NCBI RefSeq assembly: GCF_000003605.2
Contig: NW_003143796.1
Span: forward strand, 299,746 to 363,745
Reading direction: 5' to 3'
Origin: Saccoglossus kowalevskii
Lineage: Eukaryota > Hemichordata > Enteropneusta > Harrimaniidae
DNA length: 64,000 bases
Position 1 is the stretch's first letter; the number at the start of each line of letters is the position of its first letter. A model generated the notes under the pieces. The model saw only the letters and a program-made list of their open reading frames with translations, made no database searches and was not told the origin of the DNA. The position numbers and the translations under genes were made by a program. Shown here piece by piece: positions 868 to 58,417 of the stretch.

Positions 868-987
868 TCTTGTCACATTCAATGATACCGCACGCTGTAC
901 ATGCACCGTTGACATTGTTACAACTTGAACCACTGATACAGGTACAGTCTTCTTGGCAATTAACACCCCATACACCATCAGCACATG
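868..987 (-). CDS. Gene A EGF-like exon (Tie/MEGF type)
   Basis: A 120 bp phase 1-1 exon encodes CADGVWGVNCQEDCTC, then [16 protein letters not shown], ending IIECDK. The W-G-x-N-C-x(3)-C-x-C spacing is that of Tie and MEGF EGF modules. Near-identical modules occur in gene B (26937-27056) and gene D (52358-52477), with the same length, phase and CTCISG core. Confidence 0.85.
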
Positions 988-9900: not shown

Positions 9901-12900
9901 GACAGCCATGGCCACTATATTTTGAATGATCATAAATAATTTTTGAACCCAATAGTAGTAATCACTGTGATTATTATATAAATTTCTTGCAAAGTCTGGA
10001 AGGATACTGAAAAAAAATCGTTTACTTCCTTCTATATTCATGCTTGAAAGTAGGCCGAAGTATCCGCATACGAGTATCCAGATAATAAGTTAGGATCGAT
10101 CAGTTCACACGAATTGTTCTGTTCTGATTCATCATTGCAAAACAATGGCCTGGAAACGGCCCAGCTTGAGAGAAACAGTATCATGGAAAGAAAGAACAGT
10201 ATCGGACCCGATACCCTTAAAAGACCTGATGAAAACACTGCAGAATTGCGAGCGAAACGAAAGTTACGCGGCTATTGTCTAAGCGACGCAGGCCCAAGGA
10301 GAACACTGTGCATGTAACCAGCACATTTACGAATCAAGATTGGCAGAAAGTTGTACGACATCTGTCTTCGATTTTGTCTATTGATGAATATGACGCACAA
10401 AGTGAAATTGAACTTGCGTTCATGAAAATCGGGAAGGGTACTGCTTTTTCGTCAAACCGAAAAAATGGCCGCGTCACTCTTGTAACTGCGCATACATACT
10501 CCCCATACTCGCATACATTTGATGTTTTTAGTCGCTGTATCTGCTCAAATAACATCCACCATGATATAATAAATCATTATATACTAAAATTTGCAAATTT
10601 GCAGACCTTCCAATGAAATATTACCAGTTTTTTTTGGCGACAGAATATGTTATTGCAATATGCAAATTAGGCTACTCACCCTCGTCAAATATTTGTTAAG
10701 AAACTTTAAAGACTCTAAGTTATAAATTAATCAATGCAATAATTGACTAATTAATATGCATGGAATTGCACCAAAATCTAATCAGTGCATCTACTCATCA
10801 TATATTAGCTGTGTGCCAAATTTCATTTGAATTGAAATTGTAGATCTTGAGTTATCAGTGGAACAAATTTTAGTCACAGAGTCACAGACACCGGTACCAC
10901 ATAAGCTCTATTTCACGGGAGCTAAAAAATATACTATAATTTATACCATAATAATTATACTCACCACTACAACTAACATGGTTAACTGTCCATAAAGTAC
11001 CATTACAAGTTGAAGTCAATGTAGATCCATCTAAACATATGTATGTACATACACTGGTATCATTTAAACCATCAGAACATTCCACAGACTGTGTAAACTG
11101 TGTAGTTGGGAATGCAGTACATTGACCTGAAAATAAAACATACTTATTACAGTGACTGATTTAACCAATACAAAGAACATATTTGTATACAATATACCTA
11201 TTACAACTATACTGTAAAATACTTTACTTTAGCTGGCATTAATTTTCGTTGAAAAGTGTTTTTGGGTGTTTTGAATGGAATTTATTTTCACTGATTTCTG
11301 ACATACAAGTAGTATATTGTGTTTATTACCGTAAAAACTCTATTAATTCACGGTCTCTATTAATTCGCGCACCCATTTTATTTTCGAACGCTAATTTTTA
11401 AATGTATCCTTTTAATTCGCGGCGTTCAAAAACATGTTTAAAATTGTATCCTATTAATTCGCGGGCCAGAATAAAGTGGATAACTCAGAATATATTGCAT
11501 GAAGACATTAAAAATATACATTTTGTTTGAGCTTTTATGTTATCAGTACTTGGTGTAGCCGCAATCGCAGATGATCTCCGTCATCACAGCCTTTCAGTTA
11601 GCAAGCAGTTTAGGTTCGGTAAAGATTTGACCTGAAAAAAATCATTCCCCCACGACACTACAGATGTTAGGCAATATTATTACTCAGTCGATAAAAATCC
11701 ATCAGTTAGCACATCGATTACGAATTTCCGTGATGGAAATTTTTCGCCGCTGATCCACAGGGTTGCATCGACCGTGTGTCCGCCATTATTCTATATATGT
11801 CATTTAAGTAAACCGCCACGTTTTTGATTGGTTGGGCGATTGACCTCGTGTCACATTTTCATTATACCGGATTCGGTAAAAAACCACAGGGTTAAGCGGT
11901 CATGTACGTTCTATAAATCTAACCTTGCACACATAATCTTGTACTGACGTATTTTTTGTCCAAGAAAGACGTTCCTCTTCATTTACCCCCAGTTAACTCT
12001 TCGCATCCATGGTATTTGGGAGAGTTGAAAGATTTTTTGAACAAATGACAAGTAACTATATTGATTTGCGTCAAGCTGGGTGGCCCGAATTTAAATATCA
12101 GTGCATGAACTCTGGAGGTCATTGCCCAATGCCACACGTAATTCAAACGCGTGGTTAAAAAAAAAACTAATTATCATGAAAGCAACACATTACGAAGTTG
12201 AAATATTCAGAGCCGGTACAATATTGTAAACAAATTTGCGTAATGGGAAAAGCAGTGCACTAAGTAAACGACGTTGATATATTCAAAGCCAGTACAGAGT
12301 TGCATACAAGTTGCGTAATTACAGTACCCGCGGATATAATAACAATTTTACGAGATTGAAAATGAATAAAGAAGAAACTATTTAACAAGCAGCCTCTCGG
12401 CTGAGATAGCTCTGCTGTTAGCAATGCACATTTCAATTAAAGAACTGAAGATATCATTGGAAAATGAACAAATCTGATAGAGGTCTAACTGAGGTACGGT
12501 ACCTACATGTATAATATCGAAGCAATCGGACTTGTGTTTTTTAACAACAAGTCGAAAATATCACTTTTTACTTTTTACTTTTTGTGTTTAACTATGTGAA
12601 TAGCATCACAGAAATACAGACACGGTTTGGTCTTCCGATAACGATACAATACACAATTAGTTTAGAAATTCAGTTTCATACAAATTAGTCAGCAAGGGAG
12701 CATAATTCAATCCCAATTAGATGCCGATATTTTGTTGAACAGTATATCCTCCAAACTCAACATACATGTCATGTTTATCAGAAATTATAGCATGCTGATA
12801 ATTCCACTTTCACTGTAGAAAACTTGCTTCAGTCTTGTTCTTAACTTTCCATAACAATAAGAAACATTTTTATGAAAAAAATGTTGAAAAATATATTGTG

Positions 12901-13479: not shown

Positions 13480-13499
13480 GGTCCGCCTCGATAGACTGG

Positions 13500-16120: not shown

Positions 16121-16129
16121 TGCGCCTAT

Positions 16130-19100: not shown

Positions 19101-19440
19101 CGTCAAATTCTGAACAGTTATATCGGTGCTTGGAGAAGGGATACATTTGAAAATGTTTGACTGCCGATCACTCAATGAGGTTATGTCGGACAAGTTTGGA
19201 TTTTAAGAATATGTTTGTTTTTTTCCAGTTTGGTGTAACTCAAACGCATTGTTCTCCATTTCCTTATCAATTATCATTATTTGTCTAGAAAATCAAAGAA
19301 AGCTCCCGTGTGCTGAGAGTATGGGAGACACATTAAAATTAATTCAACATTTAAGATTTGCATTTCAAACGAGAAGCTTAGCAACTAATATTTGTCTGCT
19401 ATTTGCGATGCACAACATGAAAACAATGTGATTTACATTA
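16130..19440. other. Intergenic DNA between gene A and gene B 3' side
   Basis: Mostly unique DNA. Short open frames at 16266-16532 and 16764-16955 (+) are non-repetitive; the second is described separately. At 17461-17635 a unit of about 75 bp with 'agcgcc' and 'agtgttcatttt' is repeated three times. From 17640 to 19440 no gene is recognisable. Confidence 0.4.
16764..16917 (+). CDS. Possible first exon with PB1-like domain
   Basis: Reads MYQIQILYRGGRVRQEYTDG and continues with LDYNALMDFV and LFQLQFENDEG, ending at a possible donor GAAG/GTATGA at 16917. The strand order (basic first strand, helix, then an acidic FENDE loop) resembles a PB1 interaction domain, though the acidic motif is weak. 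No downstream exon was identified, so this is a suggestion only. Without splicing the frame closes at 16955. Confidence 0.25.
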
Positions 19441-20880: not shown

Positions 20881-20989
20881 AAACGTACTACGCAATCTCC
20901 ATCAAAAGAAAGTATACTTATTCAAGAAACTGTAACAATTATTTGTTTACAAATTGCTATATCATATTAGAAAGAACATGACATGCTAG

Positions 20990-21636
20990 AAACAGTGACA
21001 AGATGTTTTTTATTACAATGAATATTGGTTAATTGTATACTATACATTATATTACTATCGCCATTTATAATACATAACAATATATATAAAACAAAGTCCC
21101 TACACATTCATCACAATGTTTATGCCGTTAATATGGAAGATGCTTTACAGTGATAAGAGTACAATATTTCCCTATGATTCCAATACAACAATTGGATATA
21201 TCAAATACACAATGTATGTAATTTAACTATACAATCACGTGATGTGCAATAACATTATTAAGTTATAAATTGTTTCTTTGAAATGCCGACTGATTATACG
21301 TATACATGAGTGAATCATACCATGAAAGTATTTCTGATGAAAATTGACGATATGCATGATTTTAGTTTTTCTAGTATGTAAAACACCACAACATGATGGC
21401 ATGCAAAACAGAATATGTACATGGAAAATCATTTGATGAACAAAAATGTTGGCTATTCAGTCATACTTTCGATGGGAATCGTATTCTGTTATGTTTGTGG
21501 TTTGCTGCACATTTCACGAATACTACATTCAATTATGAATGACTTGTGATTTTCCCGAATATTTCTCCTTCCTAAAAGTTAAATTATTACACAAGGATGA
21601 TAGTCGACGATGTAAATACAATGTTTAGTATTAGTT
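20990..21636 (-). other. Gene B 3' untranslated region and downstream DNA
   Basis: AT-rich DNA after the gene B stop with no second gene. The first clear AATAAA on the minus strand is at 21009-21014, implying a 3' UTR of about 600 bases. Confidence 0.5.
21009..21014 (-). terminator. Candidate poly(A) signal of gene B
   Basis: AATAAA on the minus strand, about 625 bases after the gene B stop codon and the first exact match found downstream. Confidence 0.4.
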
Positions 21637-22517
21637 TTATATCACAACTTGATAATCACTCTGTGCGTTTTCCCTTGACTGTAAAGGCTTCCCATCAGGA
21701 TTTATCCTCAATTGTTCATAAGTATCAGCACGCATATTGATTTCTGTTAACTCAGTGTACACATCGTCATCCTTAGCTTTGGATTGATGGTCAGGGTGTG
21801 GCTTTTCTATAATTGTCAAAAAACAAACATGATACGACACACGTCATAACAAATGGATGGAATAATATTTGTTATTTGTGTAGTTTTTCGTTTCAGCTAT
21901 AACGTATCTATTTGTATATGCTACATTGCACAGTTTCGGCAATCGAATGAAAAACTAAATTGTTGACTACAAGGATGTTAACATATAAATAGGAATTAAC
22001 AATTGTGAACAATTATGCAGACATGTGAAAAAGTTCACATAATGTAGAATGTATCTAATCATTTATGTTTACCTCTCGGTTTTCTCCGTCGTCGCCTGTA
22101 AACAAATACATAAGTCAGTCATTAATCATTGAAACAATATCTTATATCATCTTTCTTCTTCAAAATCCTTTTGACGTTTGTTTATGTACGATATATTTTT
22201 TGAATAGCTGTAAAAATCACAGTGGTAAAATTGCAAGCTGTGGAATATTATGAACAGAGTATAGTACATGTATATCAATACCTTATAATGAAAAAAGCAA
22301 CCACCACACATATAACAGCAAAAATAATCACGACACACACAGCAATGATAGTTGTAAGTCGAACTGAGCTTTTGTCAGTAGTACCTGGAATGTAGGAATA
22401 ATGAAATGGTATTTGGAATGTTGTATGTGCAGTTTTAAATTATTGACATTAAAATTATAACAATTATGAACTACCTGTCTGAATAGGTTCCATGAACGGA
22501 CTTGAAGTGAAGAAAAC
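21637..22517 (-). CDS. Gene B juxtamembrane, membrane span and ITAM-like tail exons
   Basis: Exon 22475-22517 (43 bp) is a stalk. Exon 22282-22384 gives the membrane span ([19 protein letters not shown]). The 23 bp micro-exon 22073-22095 encodes a run of arginines (stop-transfer). Exon 21637-21806 encodes the 56-residue end: DDDVYTEL, nine residues, then YEQL, then SDYQVVI-stop. The YxxL pair with acidic lead fits an ITAM, SDYQVV fits an ITIM, and the terminal VVI fits a class II PDZ ligand. Phases 0-1, 1-2, 2-1 and 1-stop fit exactly. No kinase exon follows before the poly(A) signal. Confidence 0.8.
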
Positions 22518-25500
22518 CTGTAATACGCAGAAACGAGTAAAATAATGATTAATGATAATAACAACGATGATGACGACCATTATATGAAGTTATTACAAGG
22601 ATACCGTAAATTATGCACAAGGACGGTACAGCGGAAAAAATCGGCCGACGCGCAGCGACGCTTACTCTGCGGTATCCTCGTAACACCCTTATTATTATAC
22701 ACCTGTTCCTGCCTAGGATACATCATGGGATTGCCGAAATCCAAAAAGTCAGGAACAAATTGGGGTTGTGTTTGTTTTGAGGATGCTTATGCGCATAATA
22801 GCTCAGTCCATATTTGGAATTCACATTTTCTAATATAGTAGGATGAAAATATTCAGTGCAATACCACAAAATTACGTCACGCTGTAACATATGGCGTTAC
22901 AGTGACAGATAAAAACTAGAAGCACATTTTTACCTGTCCATCCACATTTGGATTATCAACATAAGCTCGAACAAAAACTGTATACCATGTTTCAGGTTCC
23001 AATTCTCCATTATAAACCTCTCCCTCATATGAATACTGAGCAATATCACGTTTTACAGGGAGATTGGAATTCTGGGTACACTCTGTCAATTTACCATCAC
23101 CAATAAGTACTTCTTCTTGGAAACTGTTTCTGGAACAGGAGTTTAAAATAGTCAAAAGAGACAGTGACATTGAATGTTGGGGAAAGGGAAAGTTTTGATT
23201 GGAAAAAAACACACTACATGCTATATGAAGAAATATGTATGTGACAATATGTAGTTTCTCATATACATGATGGCTTCGTTATTACGTTTAAGGTACCTAC
23301 ATACCAAGTATCAAAGAAAAAGTCAAGAATAGCATTTCTTACCAAAAATAAAAAAATATCCACCAAAAAAAAGAGAATTAAAGATATTGTCATGAATTGA
23401 ACACATCTGATAGACCACCCAAGGTACACATATATCAAGTATCAAGCAATTCGACTAGCGATTGTCAAGAAGTCAACAATAACATTTTTTTATCTAAAAT
23501 ATTTGCTAAAAATGGAGAATTGAAAATAGTCGGACAAAGGTCCACCTAAGGTACCTACATATCAAGTATTAAAGCAATTGAACTGGTAGTTTTCAAGAAG
23601 GAGTCGACAATAAAATGTTTTCCCAAAAATATTAGCCAAAAATAGACAATTTTAGATGTTATCAAAAAATGGAAAATCTGATAGAGGTACCATGGTACCT
23701 AAATATGATATATCAAAGTAATTGGGCATGTAGCTCTTAAGAAGAAGTCGAAAATGAAATTGTGGATGAACAACGGATGACAGACGGATGACAGACAAGG
23801 CACACTAATATATAAATATAAATATCGTCTTCTATATTCAACTATTCCACCATTGACTATATTGTCTGAGGTCATCTGAATATTGTGCAACATGCTGATC
23901 TTCGAGAATAATGGCACATGGGCCAACAATTAGCGTTATTATTTTAACCCATTAGACCCGTGTTTGATATGGATAAAATATCGAACAGACCATGGAGCAC
24001 AGGCTTTAATCAAATGTAGATATTGCAGAATTCCAAACAACTTTTGTAAAAGATGAAAGCAAGATCTCTCTCTCTCTCTCTCTGATATTTCTGCTATAAA
24101 AACTTTTACATCATATCAGGATACAATAGCAACTATTTCTGATAAACGAAGATAACATAATCTGTATGCATGAATATTTGATTAACAACATATTTTGGAG
24201 GCCTCATATCTTGATGTCCTTCTTGAATTTGACTCCAAGAGTAACCCTTCCACTAGATTCAATGAAAAGAGAGTTGACACTGATTTACCAATATCAATTT
24301 ACTCTATCTTTGTAGTAATATTTCCTTTTCTCCTGCATATAGTGTATAAATGTCCTAGCTTGTTTGATAAGCCAGAACTTGCAACAGTTATTGTGACTTT
24401 TCGAAATATTGTCTTTTTTCACACAAACTGGTGGTAAAATGTTAAATGACCTAGGCAGGTGAGCCAAGGTCGGGTTTTAAGTAGATCATCAAATAATTTA
24501 CTTCTAAAAATGTGGTAAAACTGATTTGAAGCTTTTGTGAAGCTAAGGGGAAGTAAAGACAATGTCACATAGCAACGAAACAAATCTTATGGCACAGATT
24601 TACCGTAGTGCTAGCGACTCGGAGTGACTATATAATCATAGTATAGCATATACCAACCTTGTCATCCTTACTGCCACATATGCTTGTCCTGGAATACCAT
24701 TAACATCCTCATACTTGTTCAACTCTGTTGATTCATATATACTATCGGGAGAAACTTATGTGTCAAACAGCAATGATCCAGTTTCTTTGCTGATCGGTAT
24801 ACGTATAACAATAATCTCATAACAGCTGCAATTATAGAACATCATCAATGCACCAGTATTAAAGTAAGCCTCGTGACAATTATTATAGCTTTGTGGGATG
24901 CAAGATACAAAACTATGTAGTACATTTAATTTTAATTACTCACAGTAAAGAAACATAATTAATCTTTTGTTGTATTATTGTTGATATATTGTGGCATTTC
25001 TGTATCATGACATTGTTGAAATGAACTACAATAATTGTATATACCTGATTGGTCCATTTCTTTCAGAAAACTGTTGATGAAACATCAACAATTTTGTCTG
25101 TGATTTGTCATCGACAATGACTGGAGCTTGTGATATTGGTGGTTCTGAATAAATAAGCAAACGGAATATTATGAATAATTGTATGCATAATACGTAGCAT
25201 CGAAAATCCTGAACCAAAGTAGAATGTAATCACCCATCATTGTGTTACGTTTCTTATACAGAAATGATACTTTTCAGGAAACATGAACAGGTATATATAA
25301 GGGAACATTACCGCCTCTTTCACTGTTTTGACAGTAGACTGGTGGCTGACTAGGTTCACTTTCTCCAGCATATGTGGCAGCTTGTACACTTATGACATAC
25401 TTTGAGTATGTCTGAAGTTCTTTGTATTCATAGCATGTGTTCCCATATACCAACCATGAACCTTTTGAATCTTCCATAGCTACATGTCCATCAAATCCTT

Positions 25501-28500
25501 CATATGGACTTAATGCATGTACTGAATAATTAACCTGCGAATTTATAATAATAGTAAAAGTCTGGTTTCTCGACAAGAGGATCACTAAAAGTGAATTAAC
25601 AATGCTACATAACAATATAATATTCACTGTGGGAAAATTTCAACTTACTCTATAATAAATCAATACGCCATTTGGTGATGATGGCTCGGTCCAACAAATT
25701 GTACAGATTTTATTGTTTATATCCTCTTGAGTAGTAACCAGTAGAGGAGGTGATGGAACTACGATAATATATGAACACAAACAAATAAGTAAATACGCGA
25801 ACAAACAATTAAACAAACAAACTAAATACACAACATGAATGATCGATGTACATTACATTTAACAGATGATTTAATTGATGAATATCTAAATAAATGAAAA
25901 CCCTCCTACTAATATGAATGTATATTTGTAGCAACATATAGTTTTTTTGATACAGTGTATTTCCTTTTCACACATTGTCTACACATGAAGATGCATTGGA
26001 TTACACAATATTTCAATGAATGAATAATAAATTATAACACACGGCAGAGTGGTGTGCATGGCACAATATGACATAGTATTTGACACGTTTTCTTATTTTA
26101 AGTTTTGAACGTGTGAACTTTGAAGAATCTAAGAATCGAAGTCAGTATTTGATTGCTTCATTTTACATTGAAATTGTTTGCAAAGATTGCATATTTCAAC
26201 ATGTCAGATCATAAATAAGATAAAACACAACTAACGACAATGTGCCGAACGGTATCCTCACGTGTTGCAATTCTTGCACAGCTGTGATGAAAATCTCTGA
26301 TCATCCCAATGTCTGTTTTGTTTGTGGATGTTAATATAGATTGGCTAGTTATTTCTGCGTAGTGTGTGAATTTTGTCATTTAATTCAACGACTATTTTGT
26401 GAATAAACTCATTATTATAGACTTTTAAGGGATGTTGTGAAGAAAAAGTTGGCTAATTGTTTGAGTTTGACACCATGCATTGTCAGTAACTCATTCAAAA
26501 TTTGCATAATCAAAAATGTCACATGCATGTACGCAGCTGACTGAAGAGTGTTTTTTTGTACTTGATCGCACACTGAAAAACGCTGTAACCACTCTGTTAT
26601 CCTTTCACACAAGCTAGAAAAAATGTCTAGCACATTTATTTTTTCAGTAATCGTTAATGAATATCTTCAGAAAGTAGTCTTAGGGAACCAACTTGTCAGC
26701 GGACTTGGTGACAGCTTGCCAGATTAGGGGTGTTTTTGTTATGTTTACGTTGAGGTCAAGTGCTCAAATGAAAACCAAAAACATTCTCTTTATAATTATT
26801 GGGATCCGTGTTCTAATCTGCATATATTTGATACAGATACCGGAAATTGTTGGTTATAATTCTGAAACTCATAAGATGTATGATAAACAGCATAAAATGT
26901 ATAATATATGTAATAGTATATATAACAATAGCTTACTTTTGCCACATTCAGGGTGACTGCATTCTGTACATTCACCATTGACATTGTTACAACTAGCACC
27001 ACTGATACAGGTACATGCATTTTGACAGTTATCACCCCATACACCATCATCACATACTGGAAGATAATATTTCAAATAATATCACAAGTAAAATACCCTA
27101 GAATTTAACCAGATAATACATTTCGCCATACTTAATGAGTAAACAAACAAAAAACAAAGAATAAAAACACATATAAATAAGGTAGTACATGTTTATACCT
27201 GTACAAGAGAAATTTAATGTATTCCACTGTCCATTTGCTTGACAAGTACTAGAGGTTGTCCCAGATGATGTATAGCCAGTATTACAGTAGAATGTACAAA
27301 CAGTATTGTAAGTTGTTCCTGTTGTTGGCATCCCATCGTTTGTACATGTCTTGTATCCATTTGATGGATCACTTAGAGTGTCACAATTGACTACTGTAAA
27401 GACAATTAATAAATATTTTAAATGTGAATTCATGAACAATATTATACCGGTAAAGACGGTAAGATATTGAAAATTCAACGTAAACATTAAATGTTCAATA
27501 TTATTTGTGATGTACATGTTATCTCATCAAGACTTGAGCTGGTCTTATGTAACCAGTGAGACCTGAGACTTACTTTCTTTCATTCAGACTTTAGTTTTTG
27601 ATCTGTTGTCACCTAAATTTGACTATCCGGGAAATTTATCACAATGTTGACTGTTACCTAGATCAGAGGAAATAGTCAGAAATGGTCAGTCTCTATAGAC
27701 GCAATAAAACATCGATCAACAACAACAACAGTCTAAAAGACATTAATTTAACACCAAGTATTTCTAGAAAAATGTCAATGTTTCAACTTAATAAGAAACA
27801 TAGAAATTCGGTGGCCATGAAAGAGGCTACTTCCGTTCAAGTCGTAATGCAATATCAAAATTTTACCAGGGAGGATAGTTCAATCTACTGAGGCAGAGAT
27901 TGTTAGTGTGACAATGTCCATGAATCTATATATTCAAACGGAAAAAAAAACATGACCTGTGTTTCTAGGGAAATTCACTAAATTAAAGATACTCAGATGA
28001 ATTTATTTATTTAAAAGCAAATATACTACCATGAGAATAGCAAAGCCATGACAACAACAAACCATATTGAACTCAGAGTGCAAGGCACTACTTATTCAGA
28101 AAGTATCACAATAAGTGGCTTAATATGATCTGCAAAGAATCGTAACTGTCATACTTTCAGTTCAGAAGAATATTCTTCAGAATAAATACGTTAGTTTTGC
28201 TGCCCTGCTTATCAAACCCCACATAGTTATGGAGGACAGGTCTATTGTCAATTGGTCAATCACCATTGAGAGAAATGTAAAGGAGTAGCTTATTTTATGA
28301 CTACTGTGTACAATTTATAATGTGGGCTAGGACTTTAAGAGCAATAAGATGGACTGGTCAATACGGTAAGGTTGGCTGTAAGGTTAACAGTTGCTCTATT
28401 CGCCCCATGTATTCATCCGATTTCTGCTCTCAAATGCAGGCCAAAGCAAATGTCTCAGGCTACCCCGGTCGCAGTGGCGCCGATTTTAGAAGACGAGCAA

Positions 28501-34500: not shown

Positions 34501-37500
34501 AAGATGAAACTGCTAATGTTGGGAATTAATTTTGTTCTGTTAATATGGGTTACTACTGAAATGGTTCAAAGATGTTGTTATTCGTTTCAGTTAATTACTC
34601 ATCTGTTTTTAAGTGTCAATCTTCGCAAATATTGGATTGTAGCTACAGTTTCACGACAGGTTTGAATTTCAGCACAAGTAAACACACTTATTCACGCGAA
34701 TGATATCTTTTACAACAACTATACATGTCTGTTTTTTTTAAATTTACACTCGAACTTAATAATGTTTATATTTAGGGACACATTCTTACTTGATTATGTG
34801 ATTTGTTAATCGTTTGTTATGATTACTGTACAATAGTGCAAAGTGCCCCATCACGAAACGCATCATTTAATATATTTTTTTTCAAAAATGATAATATTAA
34901 TGATTTTGTACCATGTTATCAGTGTAAATACATTTTTAAATGTGTCTCTGGTACAAGCACTTGTCAATATTCTGTTTGTGTTTCTGTACTTTTCGAAGTA
35001 TTGCGATGATAAACATTTTTTCAATACATATTTCCGGTGGAAACTCTTTTCAATGTGTGGAATCACTTTATTAAAACATGTCTTCGGTTGAGACATTTTT
35101 CTACATTTTTTTTTACAAAATGTGTGTCTACTAAAAGCACTTTTAAAAGTGTTGCGATAATAAGCACTTTTTATACATGTTCCTGGCGGGAACATTTTAC
35201 AAATGTGTGACTAGTAAAAGCACTTTTAAAAGTGTTGTGATAATAGGCACGTTTTATACATGTTTCTGGTGAAAACACTTTAGAAATGTGTGTCTAGTAA
35301 AAGCACTTTAAAAAGTGTTGTGATAATAAACACGTTTTATACATGTTCCTGGTTGAAACACTTTAGAAATGTGTGACCAGTAAAAACACTTTTAAAAGTG
35401 TTATGATAATAAGCACTTTATATACATGTTTCTAGTGGAAACACTTTTAAAAACGTGTTTCTAATGTGTTATAGGCAAAAACCTCCCTGCAATGTTTCAC
35501 TAAAAGTGTTTTCATAATATACACTTCCCGCAATTATGCAGATTATAAACACTTTAAGTGTTTTTAAAGTGGGGACAAGCTTATAAACACTTTAAATGTT
35601 TTATCACAAAACAGTTTATTTTAAAACAGTAGCGTATAATAACTTATTTGCGATTTTAAGAAAAAGTCTCAATGTGTTTAATTATAAATCACTTGAAAGT
35701 GATTTTAAAGTGGGGACAAAAATGTGTCATATTTTAAAACACATAGATTTACAGTGTAGTTGCTGTTTTATTTTGTCTTAAATAGTTGTTGTGGTCAAAC
35801 ATTGTGTTCACAGGCCACAGTTGAGAAAAATGAGGTCGGTATAATATAATAGTAATAAAACATCCACTGGCATGGTATACTACATCGATTTTTGCACAGA
35901 TGTTCTCGATATACGAGCTCGTGCAATTAAGTGCTGAGTAAGTTTGAAATAATTCAGTTGAAGAATTTTTGAGATAATGCCACGAACGGAAGGACTGACT
36001 TACAGGGCGGAGAGAAGGGGAGAAACATAGCCGTATCTGTGGCGTAATTGTCAATGATTGATAAAAACACAATAATAATGTAAATAATTTTGGGACTGGT
36101 CTTAAACTGTGTTAGTCCCACTTTAAATTCGACCACTGGCGCAAATACTGAAGATAAGATGGTACTGCTTTTTCAAACTTGTTTCATAAAGTAATAGATG
36201 CAGTTTTACAACCATCCGAGTTGCGTATTTAAATTAAAATATTTCAAGTAACATCTTTCTAAACTCATACTTATAGCAAAAAGTACTGATGATATCATAA
36301 TGTAATCTTATTACATGAATATTATTACAAAACGCTGCTACCCCATTACAAATGCGTCGGTATTTTTTATTACAAAACGCTGCTACCCTTATTACAAAAT
36401 GTGTCAGTGATTTTATTACAACACGCGTCAGTTATTACACAACGCTGCTACCCTCTATTACAAAATGCGTCAGTGATTTTATTACAAAACGCTGCTACTC
36501 TTATTACAATACGCGTAAGTTATTACAAAACGCGTAAGTTATAACAAAACGCGTCATTATTACAAAACGCGTCATTATTACAAAATGCCGCAGTACAAAG
36601 GCTAAAGATTTAAAAGTACATTAAGTTCATGTTTTAATTTACCTGATTGACAAGTAGGTCCAGTGTATCCAGTTCCTGTACAGTCACATGTGTATGACGC
36701 TATTACATTATAACATGTACCTCCATTCCAACAAGGAGAAGATGTACATTCATTAATATCTGTGAAAATAATACACAACTATTAAAATAATAAACTATTT
36801 ATAATTTTTAAACAAAAATAAATTAAAACAAGGCTAAAGATTTAAAACCACATTAAGTCAATTTACCTGTTTGACAAGTAGGTCCAGAATATCCAGTTCC
36901 TACACAGTCACATGTGTATGATCCCCCTATATTAGTACATGTACCTCCATTCTGACAAGGAGTACTCGATGTACATTCATTAATATCTGTGAAAATAAGA
37001 CACAACTATTAAAATAATAAACTATTTATAATTTTTAAACAAAAATAATTTAAATCAAGGCTAAAGATTTACAACTACATTAAGTCAATTTACCTGTTTG
37101 ACAAGTAGGTCCAGAATATCCAGTTCCTACACAGTCACATGTGTATGATCCCCCTATATTAGTACATGTACCTCCATTCTGACAAGGAGTACTCGATGTA
37201 CATTCATTAATATCTGTGAAAATAAGACGCAACTATTAAAATAATAAACTATTTATAATTTTTAAACAAAAATAATTTAAAATTAAAAAAATCTAAACAT
37301 TTAAAAGTACATTAAATTTATGTTTTAATTTACCTGTTTGACAAGTAGGTTCAGAGTATCCAGTTCCTGCACAGTTACATGTGTATGACGCTATTTTATT
37401 ATTACATGTACCTCCATTCCAACAAGGAGCAGATGTACATCCATTAATATCTGTGAAAATAATACAAAATTACCAGTATTATAACAATCAATCTGATAGT

Positions 37501-40500
37501 CAATATAACTCTACTGTCTGAAGAATTAGAGCTAAGAGTAAATGTATTTTATTTATATTTACCATTACATATGATAGAGTTAACATCCCATGTATTGGTA
37601 ATACCAGAACATGTAGACATCAATGATGTAATTGGTGTATAACCAATTGAACATATGAATGTGCATTCACTGCCAGAACCTGTATTGGTAGTGGCACCTG
37701 TACACGAGTCCAAAACAGCATTCTGTGTAACTGGCAATGCAGCACAATCACCTGCAGATACAAATGAGAAACAATCAAAACAGCAATTCTATTGACAAAG
37801 GTAAATAATTAAAATACAAGCATTGACAATGCTCAGTCCCCATTTTGTGTTGAACGTAAAATTACATCATTAGCAGCGATCGAGTAGTGTGGGTATATAT
37901 TGTGCAAAATACTATGTAAAAACATTGTACTGAGTCTGAATAAAATCATGCAAACCATCTTAGAATAACAATTGTCAAAATGGTGTGTACCTGTAATACG
38001 TATGACCCTGATATATAGCTCTCTTTTCATCTGTGAGAAATGATTCTGGACACATTTACAGACTGTGATTTTAACAAATTTCCTGAATCGGCATGGACAT
38101 GATTAAAACAAATTGGTGCACCTATAGCTCAATATACATGATCATGATACACAGTTTGAATGAAATCATCCTATTCTTCTCTGAGTAACGGTTCTGTACG
38201 TTTTTATAAAGTGTGATTTCAGGTTTGTAGACAATATGGCCATCATCATATGATTGTACTTAAAAATATATATGACATGCACTTGTAACCCAATATGCAA
38301 GATATAGATACAAAGTTTGAATAAAATTTCTCTGTTCACCCTGGAGAAGTGGACATATTTAGGAATCAAAATTTCAGAATTTAGCAATTTTGAGGACCAA
38401 AATGGCTGCCAGTCAGCCATACTTGAAGCATAGAACCAACAACAGACACTGATAATGCTGTATAGTTTTGAAATTGTTAGTGGCTTGCAAAGGAAACAGC
38501 ACTTGTTAAATCTGATGACTAGTTTAGTATGGTAAAAAGCGTGTACATTCTTCTAATAATAACAATATACATAATAAATCCTTTCTATCAATAATTGCAT
38601 CTTTAAATAATATTCATTAGATATGTCATAACCTCATTAAAATTATTAGCACAGTGCGCGTGCTTCAAAATTGCCGACCGGTGACCATTTGTTATGCCTG
38701 GATCGATCAAGTTCGGACATACATCATATCGGTCAAACTGTTTTATTACTGTAAATAATTATGAACACTACAAACTTATGAACAATAAACAATGAAACTT
38801 AGAAACTAAATCTAGTATTGTAACATGGTCTGCAGGAGGAGATTTAAAATGATGTCTATTCTATTTACCTGGATTATGCTCAATGACGTATTTTCACTGT
38901 TGGACACTTTCAAAAACAATGTGTTGCATAAACCCGGATGAAAGACCGGAGTCACGGCAAATACTTCTAGCGATTCACCTTTCTAAAAACGTCTTCAACC
39001 AGTCTAGGCCAATCATAAATTTTCAGGCCTGTGATATTGAACTTTGTTCTTTGGTGGAGCAGTGGTTTCCCTCTTCAAATATTCAAAAATACCCTTGATA
39101 CCCTGGAGTACGACCGTCCCAAATGATTTTCGTCTTTTTAATTTCTCAAGATGAACGTCTCAAGGTTGTTTTGTTTACTAGAGGCAATGTCTGCTGGAAG
39201 CATTTCTTGCATTAATTTCCATTGCACAGAAAAAACAGCAATTACTGTTACTGAAGCCCAGAATTGGCATGTATTCGCCGGCCATTCACGCAAACTGCAA
39301 ATCAAAGCTATTACCCCATCCATAGTTGTTGACACTTTGCTTCCAAGATGGATGTATTGTGACGTTTTTTGACCCCCGGATTCTAACCTTGCATTCTGGC
39401 TACATTTAGTGACCTTTCATACCAGTTCAATTTTCTCTCATTATTTCATCCAGATTTCATGATAGTTAAAACAAACCTTCATTTCACAGTCACTTTAGTT
39501 TTCACTTTTCTAAAATTATTTTACTTATCACAAGACTATCACTCCAATCATGCAATCCCCCATAGTACTTCCTCAGACCCAGTGAAGATCACCAACATAA
39601 ATACAAAGAACCCTCGCTATCGGGAGCTGAGGAGTAAACTTCACACATACCGCACACATTAGGTCATATATTTAAACAAGCGACATGATAATCGAAATAG
39701 CTCCACTGTTCTACAAGAACAATGTAGCTAATTTGAGTAACGTACACCCAGAAGTCTTTAAGAAGAGTTCAAAAATAGCAATTTTAACCCAAAATGAGAA
39801 TAATATAGAATTGAAGATATTGTAACCAAATAAACAAATAAGACAGCGGTCCACCAAAGTATACCAAGTATCAAGGCAAGAAGAAATGGCAAATAGCATT
39901 TTGTACCCAAAATTACAAAATATTTGCCAAAAATAGAGAATTGAAGATACCATCACGACATGAACAAATCTGACATAGGTCTACCAAATTATCCATATTC
40001 CAAGTATCAAAGCAATTGAGCTGACAGTTTTCATGTCAAGTCGAAAAACAACATTTTTTACCAAAACAGAGGAGAAGAAGAAGTCGAAAATGCAATTGTT
40101 AACGAACGGCGGACGGTCAATCACCTAAACGTAATTTGTTTACTGATTGAATTCATAATTTCTGACAGGCCGCCATATTGTTTTAAAGAATGCTGTACAA
40201 TAGTCATAGTTCTGACATATTTTTCCTGTGCACATTATATCAATTCATTGTATGGCTATTGCCATATGTAATACTATTACAAGAACATTTTCAGTTGGCC
40301 ATTTTATTTGACTGTTTTTGTTGAAGTAAGTAGCTACAAAGACAAGACATATATAATGGTATATCTATCATGTGATTTTTTTTTTCATTTTGATGCATTT
40401 TTGTCCAACAATTTTGTCCTGCATGTTTTTCTTGCATGTCACAATTTATTGAAAAATCACTAAAAATGAAATTGAATGAGAACTACCGGTATGTCATTGA

Positions 40501-43613: not shown

Positions 43614-44890
<1,277 letters not shown>

Positions 44891-47409: not shown

Positions 47410-47483
<74 letters not shown>

Positions 47484-49256: not shown

Positions 49257-52200
49257 GTAAGTTGTGTGGATTCGCAAACTTAATTTGACTGTTTATAAAA
49301 TTAAACCAAGGCTTACAGAATGATCGAGTTTTTATTTTGTGGTTGTGTGAATTTTTATATAAATAGCAGAGAATCATGCGTAAAATGCAATTTGAAACAC
49401 GGTTACAACTACAACGCCGTTCAATTCTGTATTGCTATGTGTATTGTCCGAAATTCGACTTACGTAACTCCATCTAGTCATTGAAAGGGCGCGTTCATGA
49501 TGTTGAACATTTGATATATTATCATTTATTTTATTGTCAGGAGATTGTACAGAGTTCCCGGATACACAGAATGCATTTTCCACGTTATGTACCCTTGGCA
49601 CGAATTATGGCAGTACGTGTACTTTCGAGTGTTTAAATGGATATACAGAATCTTCGTTATTAGTTGCTACATGTTATGGTACAACGTGGACTGTCAACCC
49701 TATCGTGTGTAGGGGTAAGCATGCGTTAATTTATTCATGTCTCGTTTTCTATATAATTTGCTATAGGGATCCGACAATGATAGTTATGTGTTATTTTGAC
49801 TGTATTGTTATTTATTAACCAGACAACGTGGACGCAATAAGAATTACATGGACAACTCAAATTAACCGTACTTGGCTAATGCAAATGAAATGTACATTTA
49901 ATTGTCACAAAACAGGACACACATAATGGTAAAAGTGGTGTTGATTAATTTATAATTTGTTGTTTCGAGCTTAAATTTAAAAACAGACGTCTACTTAATG
50001 AAATAATGACTGTTGTTAATGAGTATACAACGCGTGGTTGCTATAAGCCGTTAAGCAATTTTTGCTTAATGTGATTTTTGACGATTTTCTTAAAAAATAA
50101 TTTTCTGTGAACAAAATGTTTATATTTAATAATAATAATTTTTGTGTCATCCTTCCTTCTACCCTCGGGTCTTTGGGTAAGACCCGGCATTGGGACTGTA
50201 AAACAGCAGATCGAAAGGACATACTAGAAAACATAATGATAATAATAATTAAATGAGTATAATATTGCCACTGAATATGCAGATGTATACATGAGGAAGA
50301 TACATATATTTTATATCGGGGTACGGAATCCAAAACAGGTTTATACAAAGTAATATGCCGTTATATGAAGAATGTAAGCATAATTTGTATCATATACTTA
50401 AAGTTATTATTTGTTTTGTGTATATCAACCTTTCATTTGCATAAAAATTTTCATTCTCCATTGCAGTTGTGACTTGTCCAGCTATTATTACCCCGTCAAA
50501 TGGAGGCATGTCATGTACACCAGAATCAGGTACAGGATACAATACTGTATGTACATTCACTTGTGATGCTGGATATACCTCATCTGGATCATCGTCTAGA
50601 ACTTGTCAGTCAGATGGACAATGGAGTGGATCTGATTTTACATGTACAGGTAATTCGTGTTGATATTAGTAATAACTTGTGTTATTTTCACAATTGGTCA
50701 GTCATTGTGATTTATTCACATTGTTGCTTTATTTTATATATATATCATATTGTTTTGCAGTTGTCACTTGTCCAACTGTCAGTGTCCCATCACACGGAGG
50801 CATGTCATGTTCACCCGCAACAGGAACAGATTACAATACTAAATGTACATTCACCTGTGATACTGGATATACACCATCTGGTTCAGTATCTAGAACTTGT
50901 CAATCAACTGGACAATGGAGTGGATCTGAGTTCGCGTGTACAGGTAAATCATATTGTCATGAGAAGTACATTAGTATAGCCATATGCAACAATACCATAC
51001 AAATGTGCTGCTGACATTGCCTATGTATAACGTGTGAGATAACATTTAATGTATTATATTATATTTAAACCATTAGTAAAGTATAACGATTATTTATTAA
51101 TTCTTCGTTGCAGCTGTGACTTGTCCAATTATCATGGCTCCAACGTATGGCAACATTGCATGTACACAGGACGGTTCTGTGACATCTGCAACAAATTACA
51201 CTACGGAATGTACTTTCACCTGTAATACTGGATATACCTCATCTGGATCATCGGTTAGAATTTGTCAATCAACTGGAGATTGGAGTGGATCTGATTTCAC
51301 GTGTACAGGTAAACCATATTGACACTAGTTTTAATTAATATTAATTTTATTGTTTGTTAAATATAATGTTTTGATTATTTTGTATTATTTGATATTATAT
51401 ATTCATATTTGCAGTAGTAACATGCCCAATTGTAAGAGCTCCCTCAGACGGTGACATTTCGTGTACACCAGTATCAGGAACAGAATACAACACTGTATGT
51501 ACATTCAATTGTGATACTGGATATACCCCATCTGGATCATCGTCTAGAACTTGTCAATCAACTGGACAATGGAGTGGATCTGAATTCACATGTACAGGTA
51601 AATTATGTTAACATTGTAAATAATGAATGTGTGTGTATTTTTACATTCTTGGTAATTTATTAGTCACTGTTCATTATTGGTTAATTCTTACCAAGTATTC
51701 AGGTGCTTATTTAATAATTTGCATTTGCCTTATTCAAAAACGCTCTCTCTAGGTTGACATATCAACCTTTCATTTGTATAATAATATTCATTCTTTGCAG
51801 TTGTGACTTGTCCAGCTATTAATGCCCCATCAAATGGTGGCATGTCATGTACACCATCAGGAACGGATTACGACACTGTATGTACATACTGGATATACCC
51901 CATCTGGATCATCGTCTAGAACTTGTCAATCAAATAGACAATGGAGTGGATCTGATTTCTCATGTACAGGTAAATCATGTTGGCATTATTAAATAACTTA
52001 GTGTTGTTAGTTATAGACAGTTTGGTAGCGATATTGTCACATGCAACAATAACAAACCCATGTGTTGCTCAAATTGCCAATGTAATATATATTTCGGAGA
52101 TGACACTGTAATTGACTCTCACTAATATGCAAATTGGGGAAATAGTCCCTTCCAATGTCTGTAAATACAGTACTGGATAAACAAATCTGAAGTCAGGTAA

Positions 52201-55200
52201 ATCGAGGCCACGAAAGTCAAACAATATATTTACCGTATTGTCAAACTATTCTGAGGCATCATGTGAAAATCACAATGAGTGACATAAACAAAACTCACGT
52301 AAAAGGAAAATATGAACATCACCCACATAAATGTTATTGGAATATGGTTACTTTCAGTATGTGATGCTGATAGATGGGGCGATAATTGCCATGAATACTG
52401 TACATGTATCAGTGGTTCTAGTTGTAACAATGTTGATGGTCTGTGTACAGAATGTGATCACTCAGAATGTGACAAACGTAAGTCATAAATCAAATAGTAT
52501 GTGTATATAGTGTGATTACACCGTGCATCATTTGATTATCTAGGATTGTATACGTAGAATATTAATATTTATGTGTTTAGCCTGGGGCTATTTAGATGTT
52601 TCTTTGGTAAAATAAATGTGGTTCAGTGATCAAAGAATCAAATCAATTATCAATGTCTTTTGGATAGGCACACTTCATTAAAATTAAAGTATGTTCTATA
52701 CAATTACATGACATGGAGCAGCCATTTTCTGATTTATACATCGGCCAAGTGATTGACAGTGCTAGTAGCCAATCAGCGGAGTGATCAGTGTCAATTGATG
52801 TTGGGAATATCGGAATAATTTGTCAATGGGGAAATTATGTTGACATCGCCTGGCACTTCAAATTAAATTAAGACAGCTAGTAGCTAAGGCCGCGGGACTT
52901 CGGGTAGTTGTTTCGGGGTAAGCCCCCCACAACACCCCGCTTTACCGTTGTGTTCCCTACACTTTTACCACGCCGGGCAGATGCAGGTGATAATAGTATT
53001 TCTTAATTTTAGTCCTTATGTACTGTTTATAGCGGAGGGATCGTCACCTGCGGCCGCGCAAGAATAGAGTGCCAAATGACGATAACAACGCACGCTAAAA
53101 ACACGAAGACGCATGAGTAATATTTATAAACAACGATGCGCGATGACTGTCTGCCGCATGCGCAGGTGACGACTCCCCCGCATTAACACAATGCATATCT
53201 ACAATGGTAGTAACACCACCATGACTTGATCACTCTGACTGCTACTTCAGACAAGTTTTGTGTATTGTAAAATGTCTGTATCATATATAAAAGAGAAAAT
53301 AACTGTTTTCTACAACGTATGTTTACTTAATGTTAATTCATGACTGGGCGAGTTTTTAAAATTCACATCATTTTCGATAATCCATTCATTCAGGAAATCT
53401 TCAAGTTTCATTGAATCACCAGGGTATATATACCATCAACTACACTGACGTGTTAGAAATTATCTGTAGTGTAAACCTACCGAGTGTTGATGTATCCGTG
53501 TGGTGGATTGCACCAAACTACACATCCGATCCAGTTGTTCCTGTGAATGGTGTGATCAATTTGAATAAAACAGATTTACCAGAGGTAGACAGCGGAGTGT
53601 ATGGGTGCTATGCAGAAGCACGGAATTCAGTGGGTGTTATTGTTGGAAATTCAACTGCAAGCATCATTGTTGAGGTACAAAGTAAGTGTATTTTTTATTT
53701 AGTACTTGGCATATTTAACATTTTATAATCCAGGAAAAGTTATTGGTTTAATGTACTCTTTTCAGTATTCACACTATAACGTCTTATAAAATTGTGTTAT
53801 CAATACTCGTATACCAACTTATAATTCAGAAAATATATAGGTAGCATCGTTCCTGGCGTGGAAGTGCTAGTAAAGGTTGTATGATTTCGGAAAAGAATTT
53901 TAAAACTGTTGATGAACCGTCCACCTCCAAACACGATACATGAATGTAGGCTTTGTTTCCAATGCTGTTGACGAGAAACAAATTATGCAATGGTGAGAAT
54001 GCAATTCATCGATCACTCAACCAATATACACATGAGAATACAAGATCATATCATGGTGTAAATACACTACTGTATTTAATAAAGAGTGAATACATTACTT
54101 GTAGACATAATTTGAATTGTATCACTTTACACTTTTTACTATGTCCTAATCAAACACGTTAATAAGTACATATTGCAATTTGTTGATATCTCACAGGACA
54201 AACGTATCATCAATTCACTGCTAGTTACTCTGTACATATTAATGAGACACACACCGTGCCACATAGTTCTACTTATTACCCGACCACACTGCAATACTCT
54301 GAAGACATTGATAAAACTAACAGCGTGTCAGCACAGTTGATTAGTTCCAGCACTGCCATCATCATTGGAGTGTCTGCCGCTGTTGGCGCACTATTGATCG
54401 CTATTATTGCAACCATAGTATGTGTTGCTAGGCGATCCAATAAATTAGAAGTGTTGGAGACACAAATTCCTACAACGGACATAATGCAAGGTAGTTATGA
54501 TATGTAAATTATTTCATAAGTTTAATACATCATCGTATACCTAATTACTCTGATTATAATTATGTTTATCATTACCCATTACGCCATTAAGTTATATTAA
54601 ATCACGAATAGCCTTACACGTCTAGCGCATATAACTTCCTAATGTAATATATTATCTACAACTTATGTTTGTATACTCTTGGCTGATGACAAGGTACAGA
54701 AACGACAACGACTATTAATAGTTGAACAGATTTTTTTTAAACACTAACATTGCCATGACAATGAGAAACTTATGTACTTTATGAATTCGAGTGGGAAGGG
54801 TATCTATAACACTGTTATGATTGGTCAATTAAGACGTGCTATGACTAGCTATATTATGCATCATCCACGTGAGATTGAGAGTGACATATGAGTGGGTATC
54901 AAGTCGAAGGCCATTGTATAAGATTGGTCACATAGAAGAAACACGAACGTTCTGTGATTTTATTTCCAACTTTTTATTTTAGATACAAATTATATTGCAA
55001 AAGCCAACAGTCTTGTATCGAAATATGAATTTCCCTTAAATCGTCTGCAATATGTGTCCGAACTTGGAAGTGGTCATTTCGGGGTGGTGTACAAGGCAAT
55101 TGCTTCTGGTATTGCAGGAAAAAAAGACGCTCTTCCTGTTGCGGTCAAAAAATTGAAAGGTAAGTTCAGATTTAAAAAAAATGGCAAAAATAATATATGA

Positions 55201-58200
55201 TGGTTCCGGTAACGAAAGCATAGATGGATGAATGAAAGAAATTGAATGGAATAAATTAGGTGCTGAACAATTTGTTTTAATTAGCGAAAGCAAAATTGTA
55301 CGGTAACAAATCTTTGAACTATGGATATAAGGACTCCGAGATGTGTGGATGTCAGTTATGATAGAGGGAGAATTCCATATATGGCATTTCTTCAAACCAA
55401 ATATTTATTAAAAAAATGTATCATACTATTTTCCATACTAATATATATGTATGTTATGCCCTCATAGAATTGGTTGAACTCCAATCGTATACAATTACAT
55501 TTTCTAACTATGTATACCAAATTGATTGAAAGCGTACGTAGACGTAAATAACCCAATGTATAAGAATCCACGTGGACAATATGCAACACACCCGGTAATA
55601 TGCATGCGTCTCAGATGTCAAACTCTCCATAATTTCTATTAACATTTCTGAGGACAGACACTGCCACGTCGTCTCAAAAAGAAGACATGCTACGTGAAAT
55701 TCAACTTTTACAAGAGATAGGGGAGCATCCAAACATATTGGGTATTCTTGGATGTTGCACTTCTGAGGAACCATACCTTCTCATTACCGAATATATGAAG
55801 TACGGGGATCTCAAAAACTTCCTATGGCAATCCAAAAAGGTAGATTTATTTTGTGTGTGTTTATAATAAAATATTTATTATGTTATGAGGAAGACGAGGA
55901 GACGAATATGTGAGGCTAACGTTGGCGGAAAACATTTGATTTTATAATACGACGGTATATCTGGCATAATGCAATCTAAGTGAAACATTCAGAACTCTTA
56001 CAAGGATAATTTGCATAACATTATACAATACTGAATAAATAGGTGATGCCTCAATTCAAGTTGGTTCATACCAATGTGTTGAGGCGAATATTAAAATACC
56101 GAATACAATATTTTAACAATTTTGGGGAATTTCTGTGAATTTGTTTCTGCGTTTGAAAAAGAACACATTTACATAGTATACGTCATCATTCATCGTAACA
56201 GTTCGCAGGATCAATTGGGGTTAGTTAGGGCGCAATAGAAAAACGTAACGCAATGACTTCACGCGATAATATCTCATAGTAGGTGTATGTTTGAAATGAG
56301 TGGCATTGTATTCCAATTACTGTCTTCCGTCATTTGCTATCTTTCAGAAACAAATCCAAGCGGAGGATACAATTTATAATTTGTGTGAGAAGAATTATTT
56401 TCAAATTGGCAGGCAAATCGCAATGGGCATGGTGAGGAAATCAGCAGTTTTTTGAGGGGGGGCTTAAGATCTTTGATATGTTAGTCCCTATACAGTACGC
56501 ATTAAATTTCTGGTTCGTGGTTGTTATTCCAAATGATTGTCGTCATCGTTGCTATGCATATTTTCAGGAGTTTTTGGCCAACAAGAAGTATGTGCATGGC
56601 GATTTGGCTGCGAGGAATATTCTGGTTGGGGAAGACTTGCTAATTAAAATAACTGATTTCGGACTGACTAATGATGTATACCTGCGGGGTTGGATGGATC
56701 TTCCTGCAGACACAATGAGACCTATCCACTGGGTTAGTCCCGAAACCAACCTAGAAGGGAAATGTACTATGCAAAGTGATGTGTAAGTAACGACGTGTAC
56801 TAGTGTGTTATGTTGTGTTGTGTTGTGCTATGCTGTGTTCTGGTGTGGTATGTTGTGTTCTGTTGGAACATACTGTTCATCATTCATAATGCTTTGTACG
56901 TTATTATTTGTTATATATCTCTTTGACTTAGATGGTCATTCGGCATAGTACTTTATGAGATTGTTACAAGGGGTGGTCGACCATATCCGGGAATGACTCC
57001 AAGAGAAGTGCTGATTAACTTACGGAATGGCTACAGAATGCCAAAACCACACGGCTGTTCTCCCGTGATGTAAGTTGTATAAACATGCAGTATTTCACCT
57101 TAAATATAAATGTATGTGGATGCCGCGCAGCGCGTGTTCGGATTTATTTTAAACAGTATATTTTACACGCGTCGCTATGTCGAAGGGGATGCGGCGTGAC
57201 GACCACCCTTTAACTTATAATGTTAGTTAATATTTGTGCATGTGCTCACTGTGTATAGAATTTATTAAAAAAAATCTGTGTTTTGTCGCTTCCAAAGTAG
57301 TGTCAGTTCAAATAATTACAAATAAATGTGTGTATTGAATTATAAGTACATACAAACACCTTGCGCTGGCGTAGATCTGGATCACAGAACTGAATGGAGT
57401 CATGATCAAAAAATTCAACGTCATTTTCTGTTTCATTTTGAACATGATATTTTGTTAATAAGCCACTGTTATCCCACCACGTCGGGGTCGATGTTGGTCC
57501 TATATTACTGTAGGCCGTCGTAATGTGACGTCATATGTTCACATTTTGCCAACTACTCTGCGAATATCTGATGATAAATGTCGCTCAATGATCAGTACTA
57601 GCTTGCGATGTGATGTGACGACGTTACGCGTGGTTGTTTTATTAACATAGACACGTACCTGCACGTATATTAAATAACTACAACAGCAAACAACGACTTT
57701 TTGTTATCTTCAGTTTGTGTAAGATCGGTTCTTGCCAACCACTCAGTGCACACGCATACACGCCGAAAACGGAAAACAAGTGCCTACGCTTACACAACTT
57801 GGATAAATTACATAGTTTGTTACACAATATTTAAATGTGCTCTGCGTGGTGACTGTAACGCTTACAGTTCACACACGTTACTCAGATGGTAAAACAAATA
57901 AATCATATTTCTGACCCACTATATTTCCAATCTTAACCTATCAGTCTATTTGAACAGGTATGAACTTATGACGCAATGTTGGCAAGAAGACCCGGAAGAG
58001 AGACCGAATTTTACTCAGCTTCGTGATCGATTAAACGAGTTGCTTAGCCAGTTTGCCGACTACCTCAACAACCCACCTGTTAAATATATAAATATAACTG
58101 ACGTACCACTAGTAGATAACATGGCAAATAAAACATCATCCGATGAATTCAATGTTGGTGACAGTAGCGCATCCGGTTATCTGTCACCGAAAAACTCTGA

Positions 58201-58417
58201 TGAAGACAATTCAGTGAGTGAGAGCGGCGGCTTCGCCGATAGACAACCGTATTTTACCTCCCTGGAGCCAGATAAATTTACAAATACAGGATTGGATAGC
58301 ATGGAACTGTCCGGTATAACCACGGACAATCCACACCGAATAAACGAATCGTCCGAAAAATTATGCTCCGGCGAAGACCATCAAGCGAGCAAAAGTGGCC
58401 GTATTTCACCGCCGTGA
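49184..58417 (+). CDS. Gene D: receptor tyrosine kinase with sushi, EGF and Ig ectodomain
   Basis: Fifteen coding exons with consistent phases total 2949 bp (982 residues). They are 49184-49256, 49541-49714, 50467-50649, 50761-50943, 51114-51308, 51415-51597, 52358-52477, 53394-53681, 54197-54490, 54983-55159, 55658-55839, 56348-56431, 56568-56782, 56932-57069 and 57958-58417. A sixth sushi exon (51801-51969) is broken and left out. Domains: signal peptide 1-24, five sushi (25-330), Tie/MEGF EGF (331-370), Ig (371-466), stalk, membrane span (about 520-544), kinase (about 586-865) and a tail with SH2-type motifs. It is a single-pass plasma-membrane receptor that should phosphorylate tyrosines after ligand-driven clustering. 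The ligand is unknown. The kinase looks closest to the Tie/FGFR/VEGFR side of the family, but the sushi-EGF-Ig order is unlike a vertebrate RTK. The start is fixed by the shared signal-peptide exon. Confidence 0.85.
49541..49714 (+). CDS. Gene D first sushi exon
   Basis: A 174 bp phase 1-1 exon, [17 protein letters not shown], with [13 protein letters not shown] and [11 protein letters not shown]. Orthologous in position to the first sushi exons of A and B. Confidence 0.85.
50467..51597 (+). CDS. Gene D four tandem sushi exons
   Basis: Exons 50467-50649, 50761-50943, 51114-51308 and 51415-51597 are all phase 1-1 (183-195 bp). Each reads V(V/A)TCP, then GGMSC or a variant, CTF(T/N)C(D/N), GYT(S/P)SGS, C(Q)S, and WSGS(D/E)F.CTG, the CCP pattern with short loops. 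Introns are only 106-170 bp here, against kilobases elsewhere. The repeats are alike, so the array grew recently by exon duplication. Confidence 0.95.
51801..51969 (+). pseudogene. Gene D sixth sushi exon, broken by an 11 bp deletion
   Basis: Splice sites (TTTGCAG and CAG/GTAAAT) are intact, and the start [17 protein letters not shown] is normal. After TVCT an 11-base loss relative to the other repeats shifts the frame and reaches a stop at TAG. Its upstream intron ('tatcaacctttcatttg') matches the intron before 50467, so this is a duplicate of that exon. Because all sushi exons are phase 1-1, skipping it leaves the protein in frame. Confidence 0.8.
52358..52477 (+). CDS. Gene D EGF-like exon
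   Basis: A 120 bp phase 1-1 exon, [16 protein letters not shown], then [16 protein letters not shown] and DHSECDK. Counterpart of 868-987 (A) and 26937-27056 (B). Confidence 0.9.
52965..53182. repeat. GC-rich foldback element in gene D intron
   Basis: CGGAGGGATCGTCACCTGCG (from 53033) is inverse to CGCAGGTGACGACTCCCCCG (53161-53180). A further 'gcagatgcaggtga' lies at 52977. The GC-rich block stands out in an AT-rich intron between the EGF and Ig exons. MITE-like. Confidence 0.5.
53394..53681 (+). CDS. Gene D immunoglobulin-like exon
   Basis: A 288 bp phase 1-1 exon with the Ig marks in order: LEIICSV (first Cys), VWWIAP (Trp), [15 protein letters not shown] (D-x-G-x-Y-x-C) and ASIIVEV. One Ig domain of about 95 residues, with N-glycosylation sequons (NYT twice, NKT and NST). 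Gene B has FN3 domains in this place. Confidence 0.9.
54197..54490 (+). CDS. Gene D stalk and membrane-span exon
   Basis: A Ser/Thr-rich stalk precedes the hydrophobic span [20 protein letters not shown], followed by IVCVARR, a stop-transfer RR. The juxtamembrane part is short ([16 protein letters not shown]). Phase 1-1. Confidence 0.9.
54983..58417 (+). CDS. Gene D tyrosine kinase and C-terminal tail exons
   Basis: Six exons encode a full kinase: glycine loop [11 protein letters not shown] (593-603), VAVKKLK (Lys620), [10 protein letters not shown] (Glu637), HGDLAARN (722-729, Asp724), DFG (742-744), an activation loop with Tyr750, PIHWVSPE (764-771), [20 protein letters not shown] and [13 protein letters not shown] is HGD and APE is SPE; the catalytic Lys, Asp and DFG are kept, so it may still be active. 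The tail has YINI (a Grb2-type YxN), GYLSP and PYFTSL. It ends at TGA 58415-58417. In another frame the next bases read HNSPEYVNEV then an acidic end and stop, which looks like an older C-terminus. Confidence 0.9.
56803..56865. repeat. TGTGT(T/G) minisatellite in gene D intron
   Basis: Short TGTGTTGTG and TATGTTGTG units repeat over about 60 bp between two kinase exons. Confidence 0.7.
57070..57957. other. Gene D last intron
   Basis: The 888 bp between the last two kinase exons. The frames in it are short and lack motifs; I found no extra exon, and none is needed for a complete kinase. Confidence 0.6.

Follow-up and report, generated by a model that had tools for sequence, protein, structure and literature searches.

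The window analysed here (the whole stretch of 64,000 nucleotides, with a G+C content of about 35% on average, long introns and tandem repeats) carries similar entrance modules at three sites, which we count as three genes: A and B on the minus strand, and D on the plus strand. Judging by these receptor genes, the DNA looks like that of an animal genome. Gene A, the next member of the cluster after B, was recognized through protein-versus-DNA matches to an entrance module (10963..11127, minus strand) and to an EGF-like module (869..985, minus strand) that presumably belongs with it, in which case the gene would extend beyond the window. Gene D encodes a receptor tyrosine kinase, whose first part (49541..55839, plus strand; protein matches and Pfam) comprises five sushi modules, an EGF-like module, an Ig-like module, a transmembrane segment and the start of the kinase, and whose second part (56348..58417, plus strand; junctions and limits read by eye) holds the remaining kinase and a C-terminal tail. 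Its sushi region consists of the entrance sushi and four further intact exons (five Pfam stretches), and its Ig-like module matches Ig_3 below the cut-off (E 0.03) and is unlisted when a longer protein is used. With a query from which one exon was missing, the kinase matched PK_Tyr_Ser-Thr at 9e-74 and 452 PDB sequences at 1e-40, the best 60 of these 452 being receptor kinases (EGFR, RET, PDGFR, KIT, FGFR and VEGFR). At position 56595 (plus strand) it reads HGDLAARN, at a site where most tyrosine kinases have HRDLAARN. An extra sushi-like exon at 51800-51971 (plus strand), of which one half (51800-51889) is read in another frame than the other (51867-51971), was omitted from the gene D model.

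The exon model of gene B derives from genomic sequence rather than from transcripts, and was built by linking open stretches through splice sites and reading phase, with the aid of peptide anchors. Its modelled part comprises eleven exons (27393 down to 21637, minus strand) with GT-AG borders throughout, and yields a single open frame of 454 residues that closes with a TAA stop. As the joining script accepted only exons whose phases matched, the phase agreement is partly built in; the informative part of the model is the occurrence of good GT and AG sites at all 10 junctions (the weakest acceptor being the one before 24741). The encoded modules follow each other in the order sushi, EGF-like, FN3, second FN3-like, stalk, helix and tail. 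The sushi module (27199..27393) and the two-exon FN3 module (25649..25758 and 25312..25534) have Pfam matches above the cut-off (sushi 1e-7; fn3 1.2e-8), and the EGF-like module (26937..27056) is labelled by its cysteine pattern, Pfam reporting it in neither B nor D. The second FN3-like module is distributed over three exons (25045..25144; 24658..24741, behind the weakest acceptor; and 22934..23129, FN3-like by eye), and is succeeded by a stalk exon of 43 bases (22475..22517), a transmembrane exon (22282..22384; mean hydropathy 3.58 over 21 residues), a small exon of 23 bases encoding the basic juxtamembrane stretch RRRRKPR (22073..22095) and a terminal exon of 170 bases (21637..21806), all on the minus strand.

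The terminal exon (21806-21637) is in frame with the transmembrane exon (22384-22282) and the basic exon (22095-22073), so that the tail described in the sequence-only reading (64 residues past the membrane, with DDDVYTEL-x9-YEQL, SDYQVV, a C-terminal VVI and a stop) is reproduced by the model. Two AATAAA hexamers, 622 and 1017 bases downstream of the stop, are compatible with a gene end without proving one, the DNA being A+T-rich. Within the window we found no further copies of the tail, juxtamembrane or transmembrane exons: elsewhere the tail reached E 0.88 at best at the protein level, and the whole transmembrane-to-tail region E 0.05 at best at the DNA level. At the level of the gene, B is a sound observation.

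The modelled part begins short of the true 5' end, and no signal-peptide exon was identified for the gene. An entrance sushi-like exon (37563..37751, minus strand; Pfam sushi E 0.015, below the cut-off) and four calcium-binding EGF exons (36643..37450, minus strand; EGF_CA 2.4e-13 with three of the four exons scanned) lie upstream of the modelled exons, on the same strand and in compatible phase, and are likely part of gene B. Together with their introns the four EGF exons form a tandem array of 227-base units (36636-37466, minus strand), which looks recently duplicated, given the 89% matches among its units. On the opposite strand of a presumed B intron (29589-29858, plus strand) lie two tandem 133-base copies resembling half an FN3 exon; the first matches Pfam fn3 below the cut-off (E 0.0013), the second gives no match, and no partner exon was seen for either.

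That B shares its entrance, sushi and EGF modules with the kinase gene D, as had been proposed from the letters, is confirmed by identities of 48% for the entrance (counting the upstream candidate as part of B), 49-56% for the sushi module (against the four intact inner copies of D) and 70% for the EGF-like module. The similar modules stand in one order in both genes, which supports a common descent of their front parts. The two receptors diverge in the region that links the EGF-like module to the membrane, where B has the FN3 and FN3-like modules and D a different, Ig-like one. Furthermore, a query with the helix and juxtamembrane region of D met B in a hydrophobic match only (E 3.8, within the helix), and the reciprocal query with B found no match in D. 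The rear parts look to be of different origin, and since the modules between the shared front and the membrane differ, we regard B as a modular relative of D and not as a D from which the kinase has been removed.

The likeness of the front parts raises the question of whether B serves as a decoy or co-receptor of D, binding the same ligand through the common sushi and EGF-like modules and either heterodimerizing with D or taking up its ligand, the tail being a substrate of D or irrelevant. The location of both genes in one cluster, the similar modules in the same order and the apparent want of a kinase in B would all agree with such a role; against them stand the dissimilar membrane-near modules, the wide shuffling of sushi and EGF modules in general and, for a pure decoy, a tail with three tyrosines that it would not need. 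On balance we consider this role unlikely.

The sequence-only reading had also described B as a kinase-less member of a receptor tyrosine kinase cluster. The kinase-less part of this description stands: Pfam reports no kinase domain in the B model, and searches of the 10.5 kb that separate it from the next gene brought none to light. Five pieces of the D kinase (the piece from the exon at 56348 not among them), searched by tblastn over the window, produced no match with an E value under 0.8 in the minus-strand sequence below 21637, and a scan of the window for kinase motifs returned matches in D only. Three phosphatase signature motifs are absent from every frame of the window, and the minus-strand open frames of at least 28 residues in 11140-21640 (4,506 residues) contain no Pfam family at E 0.5, so that B shows neither the signatures nor, behind it, the Pfam match of a receptor tyrosine phosphatase PTP domain. 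Within the reach of these searches, a kinase exon hidden behind the tail was rejected. What has to be qualified is the implied kinship, B being more than D minus its kinase. In comparison to Tie-type and other Ig/EGF/FN3 receptor tyrosine kinases, B has sushi and EGF-like modules in common with its kinase neighbour, but no kinase domain was found for it and its membrane-near modules and tail are unlike those of D.

The same searches bear on the proposal that some transcripts skip the tail exon and read on into a catalytic exon (kinase or phosphatase) located elsewhere, with the ITAM tail confined to one isoform. Exons under 28 codons or beyond the window would escape the open-frame scan, and Draper itself makes tail isoforms; direct support for the proposal is nil, and with the tblastn, signature and Pfam results all negative within the ranges given above we deem it most improbable. 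A phosphatase-type origin of the membrane-near module was likewise tried and set aside: the module matched PTP_tm below the cut-off when 128 residues were submitted (E 0.052, which leaves the family assignment of its last exon weak), the match vanished when 95 residues or the whole protein were used, and a sequence search of PDB returned one chance match (E 1.2). As a lead only, the module and stalk weakly resemble the membrane-proximal part of LAR/PTPRJ-type receptor phosphatases, from which B differs in that the window holds no phosphatase signature and the PTP_tm match was not reproduced.

The three tyrosines of the tail occupy its positions 25 (DDDVYTELT), 38 (RADTYEQLR) and 60 (AQSDYQVVI). 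The first two form an ITAM-type pair, YxxL-x9-YxxL, which falls within the general pattern YxxL/I-x6-12-YxxL/I and outside the narrower spacing of x6-8; the third, in SDYQVV, agrees by eye with the ITIM pattern S/I/V/LxYxxI/V/L. Among 200,000 residue shuffles of the tail, 0.38% contained the general pair, 0.07% the pair with D/E also at -3 of the first tyrosine, and 0.04% the pair with an acidic residue two or three positions ahead of each tyrosine, for patterns picked post hoc with the tail already in view. In six-frame noise the bare pattern is frequent (46 matches per 120,197 residues, about 0.02 per 64 residues) and hence worth little by itself; what gives it weight is its position in the tail exon. 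The coding frame of this exon has a codon-use score of +0.03 (training set: ten exons of D and those of B other than this one). Open stretches that are presumably non-coding average -0.27, and 6 in 491 overlapping ones score as high. A second frame of the exon, which contains stops, scores nearly as well (-0.035), so that the support from codon use is modest. That a short, weakly constrained tail resembles an ITAM by coincidence would be in keeping with the six-frame frequency and with the late choice of patterns; considering how seldom shuffled tails match, and how much more seldom with acidic flanks, we hold a chance resemblance to be very unlikely.

The tail motifs also fit YxxL endocytic signals. 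It is accordingly conceivable that the tyrosines serve in endocytic sorting, or singly as docking sites for SH2 domains of the Grb2 or Src type, and that B acts as a scavenging receptor or co-receptor without ITAM signalling. YTEL, YEQL and YQVV all conform to the YxxPhi consensus, whereas few shuffled tails (0.04 to 0.07%) reproduce the pair together with its acidic flanks, and endocytic signals are not known to require such pairing; we regard this alternative as possible, though on the unlikely side.

Our preferred reading, which we put forward tentatively, is that B works in the manner of Draper, its tail serving as a docking site for a tandem-SH2 kinase. In this scheme B would be a type I membrane receptor that recognizes a ligand through its outer sushi, EGF-like and FN3 modules. 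Both tyrosines of YTEL-x9-YEQL would be phosphorylated by a kinase of the Src type or, in trans, by the receptor kinase D next door; a Syk- or Shark-type kinase with tandem SH2 domains would dock on the doubly phosphorylated pair; and the third tyrosine (SDYQVV) could recruit an SHP-type phosphatase as a brake. At the sequence level the scheme draws on the exon anatomy, the tail, the motif spacing, the modules common to D and the failure to find a kinase domain. In its favour are the eleven exons that end in a stop, the rarity of the pattern in shuffles and the codon use of the tail exon; against it are the x9 spacing outside the narrow range, the bare matches in six-frame noise and the codon score of the second frame. 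The mechanism is plausible but unproven, and the decoy, co-receptor and Syk/SHP adapter roles suggested for B are all inferential.

CD3 zeta, DAP12, Fc receptor gamma and FcgammaRIIA resemble B in the YxxL pair and in the acidic residues before the tyrosine, but the architecture of these vertebrate ITAM adapters and immunoreceptors is absent in B, and the relation is by motif only. The engulfment receptors Draper, MEGF10 and CED-1 resemble B in crossing the membrane once and in having EGF-type modules outside; two of them, Draper and MEGF10, bear an ITAM in the cytoplasm whose reader is Shark or Syk, and Draper also has an ITIM isoform. As an EGF-repeat receptor of an invertebrate, Draper provides the nearest precedent for the proposed mode of working: Src42A phosphorylates the ITAM of Draper-I, which thereby recruits the Syk-related kinase Shark, and in the splice form Draper-II it is an ITIM that recruits Corkscrew (PMC4503800, PMC8092387). 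B differs in its outer modules, having sushi and FN3 where Draper/MEGF10/CED-1 are described with EMI, EGF or NIM modules and NPxY (PMC8092387). In the modelled part of B, which stops short of the true 5' end, Pfam reports sushi and fn3 and no EMI, and the candidate 5' exons are sushi or EGF; the tail, read whole, contains no NPxY (only INPDG). Moreover, unlike in Draper/MEGF10/CED-1, the short tail of B has an ITIM-like motif beside its ITAM-like pair. There are reports of Syk-family kinases from Hydra, sponge and schistosome (PMC2820527) and of a Syk from oyster (PMC4883820), which makes an invertebrate reader of such a tail plausible. The schistosome Syk is, according to the same source, without an ITAM-binding sequence (PMC2820527), and a tyrosine-kinome survey places Syk among the families that emerged in vertebrates (PMC8662651), at odds with the invertebrate reports.

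No receptor with the architecture of B and an ITAM tail was found in the literature searched, which is part of the whole. Scans with six short exact peptides, to which only close relatives are visible, confirmed no relatives of B in contig collections that are prokaryotic or viral and hold no animals (28 pattern matches in the former, none in the latter). If the tyrosine pair proves conserved, B would represent an ITAM-type receptor with a new outer architecture, outside vertebrates and the Draper family and close to a kinase with the same front modules, and one could then ask directly how a recognition module changes between a built-in kinase and adapter signalling. It would be a bolder step, and one that we rate as improbable, to suppose that the cluster, in an animal without adaptive immunity, pairs the same ligand-reading front with a kinase of its own in one member and with an ITAM plus ITIM tail in another. 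A single recognition module would then exist in a self-contained and in an adapter-type form, and the tail of the second might be phosphorylated in trans by the kinase of the first.

Outside the receptor genes, Rfam and tRNA scans of the window gave zero matches. The region 1700-4000 has raised G+C (48% across the first 4 kb) and long open frames, three of which returned nothing from Pfam at E 0.01; these frames are reminiscent of a DIRS-type retroelement. Tandem repeats and microsatellites, long TG and TAA runs among them, occur at 8928-9507, 20213-20832, 35111-35458, 36322-36588, 43652-43783 and 47410-47483.
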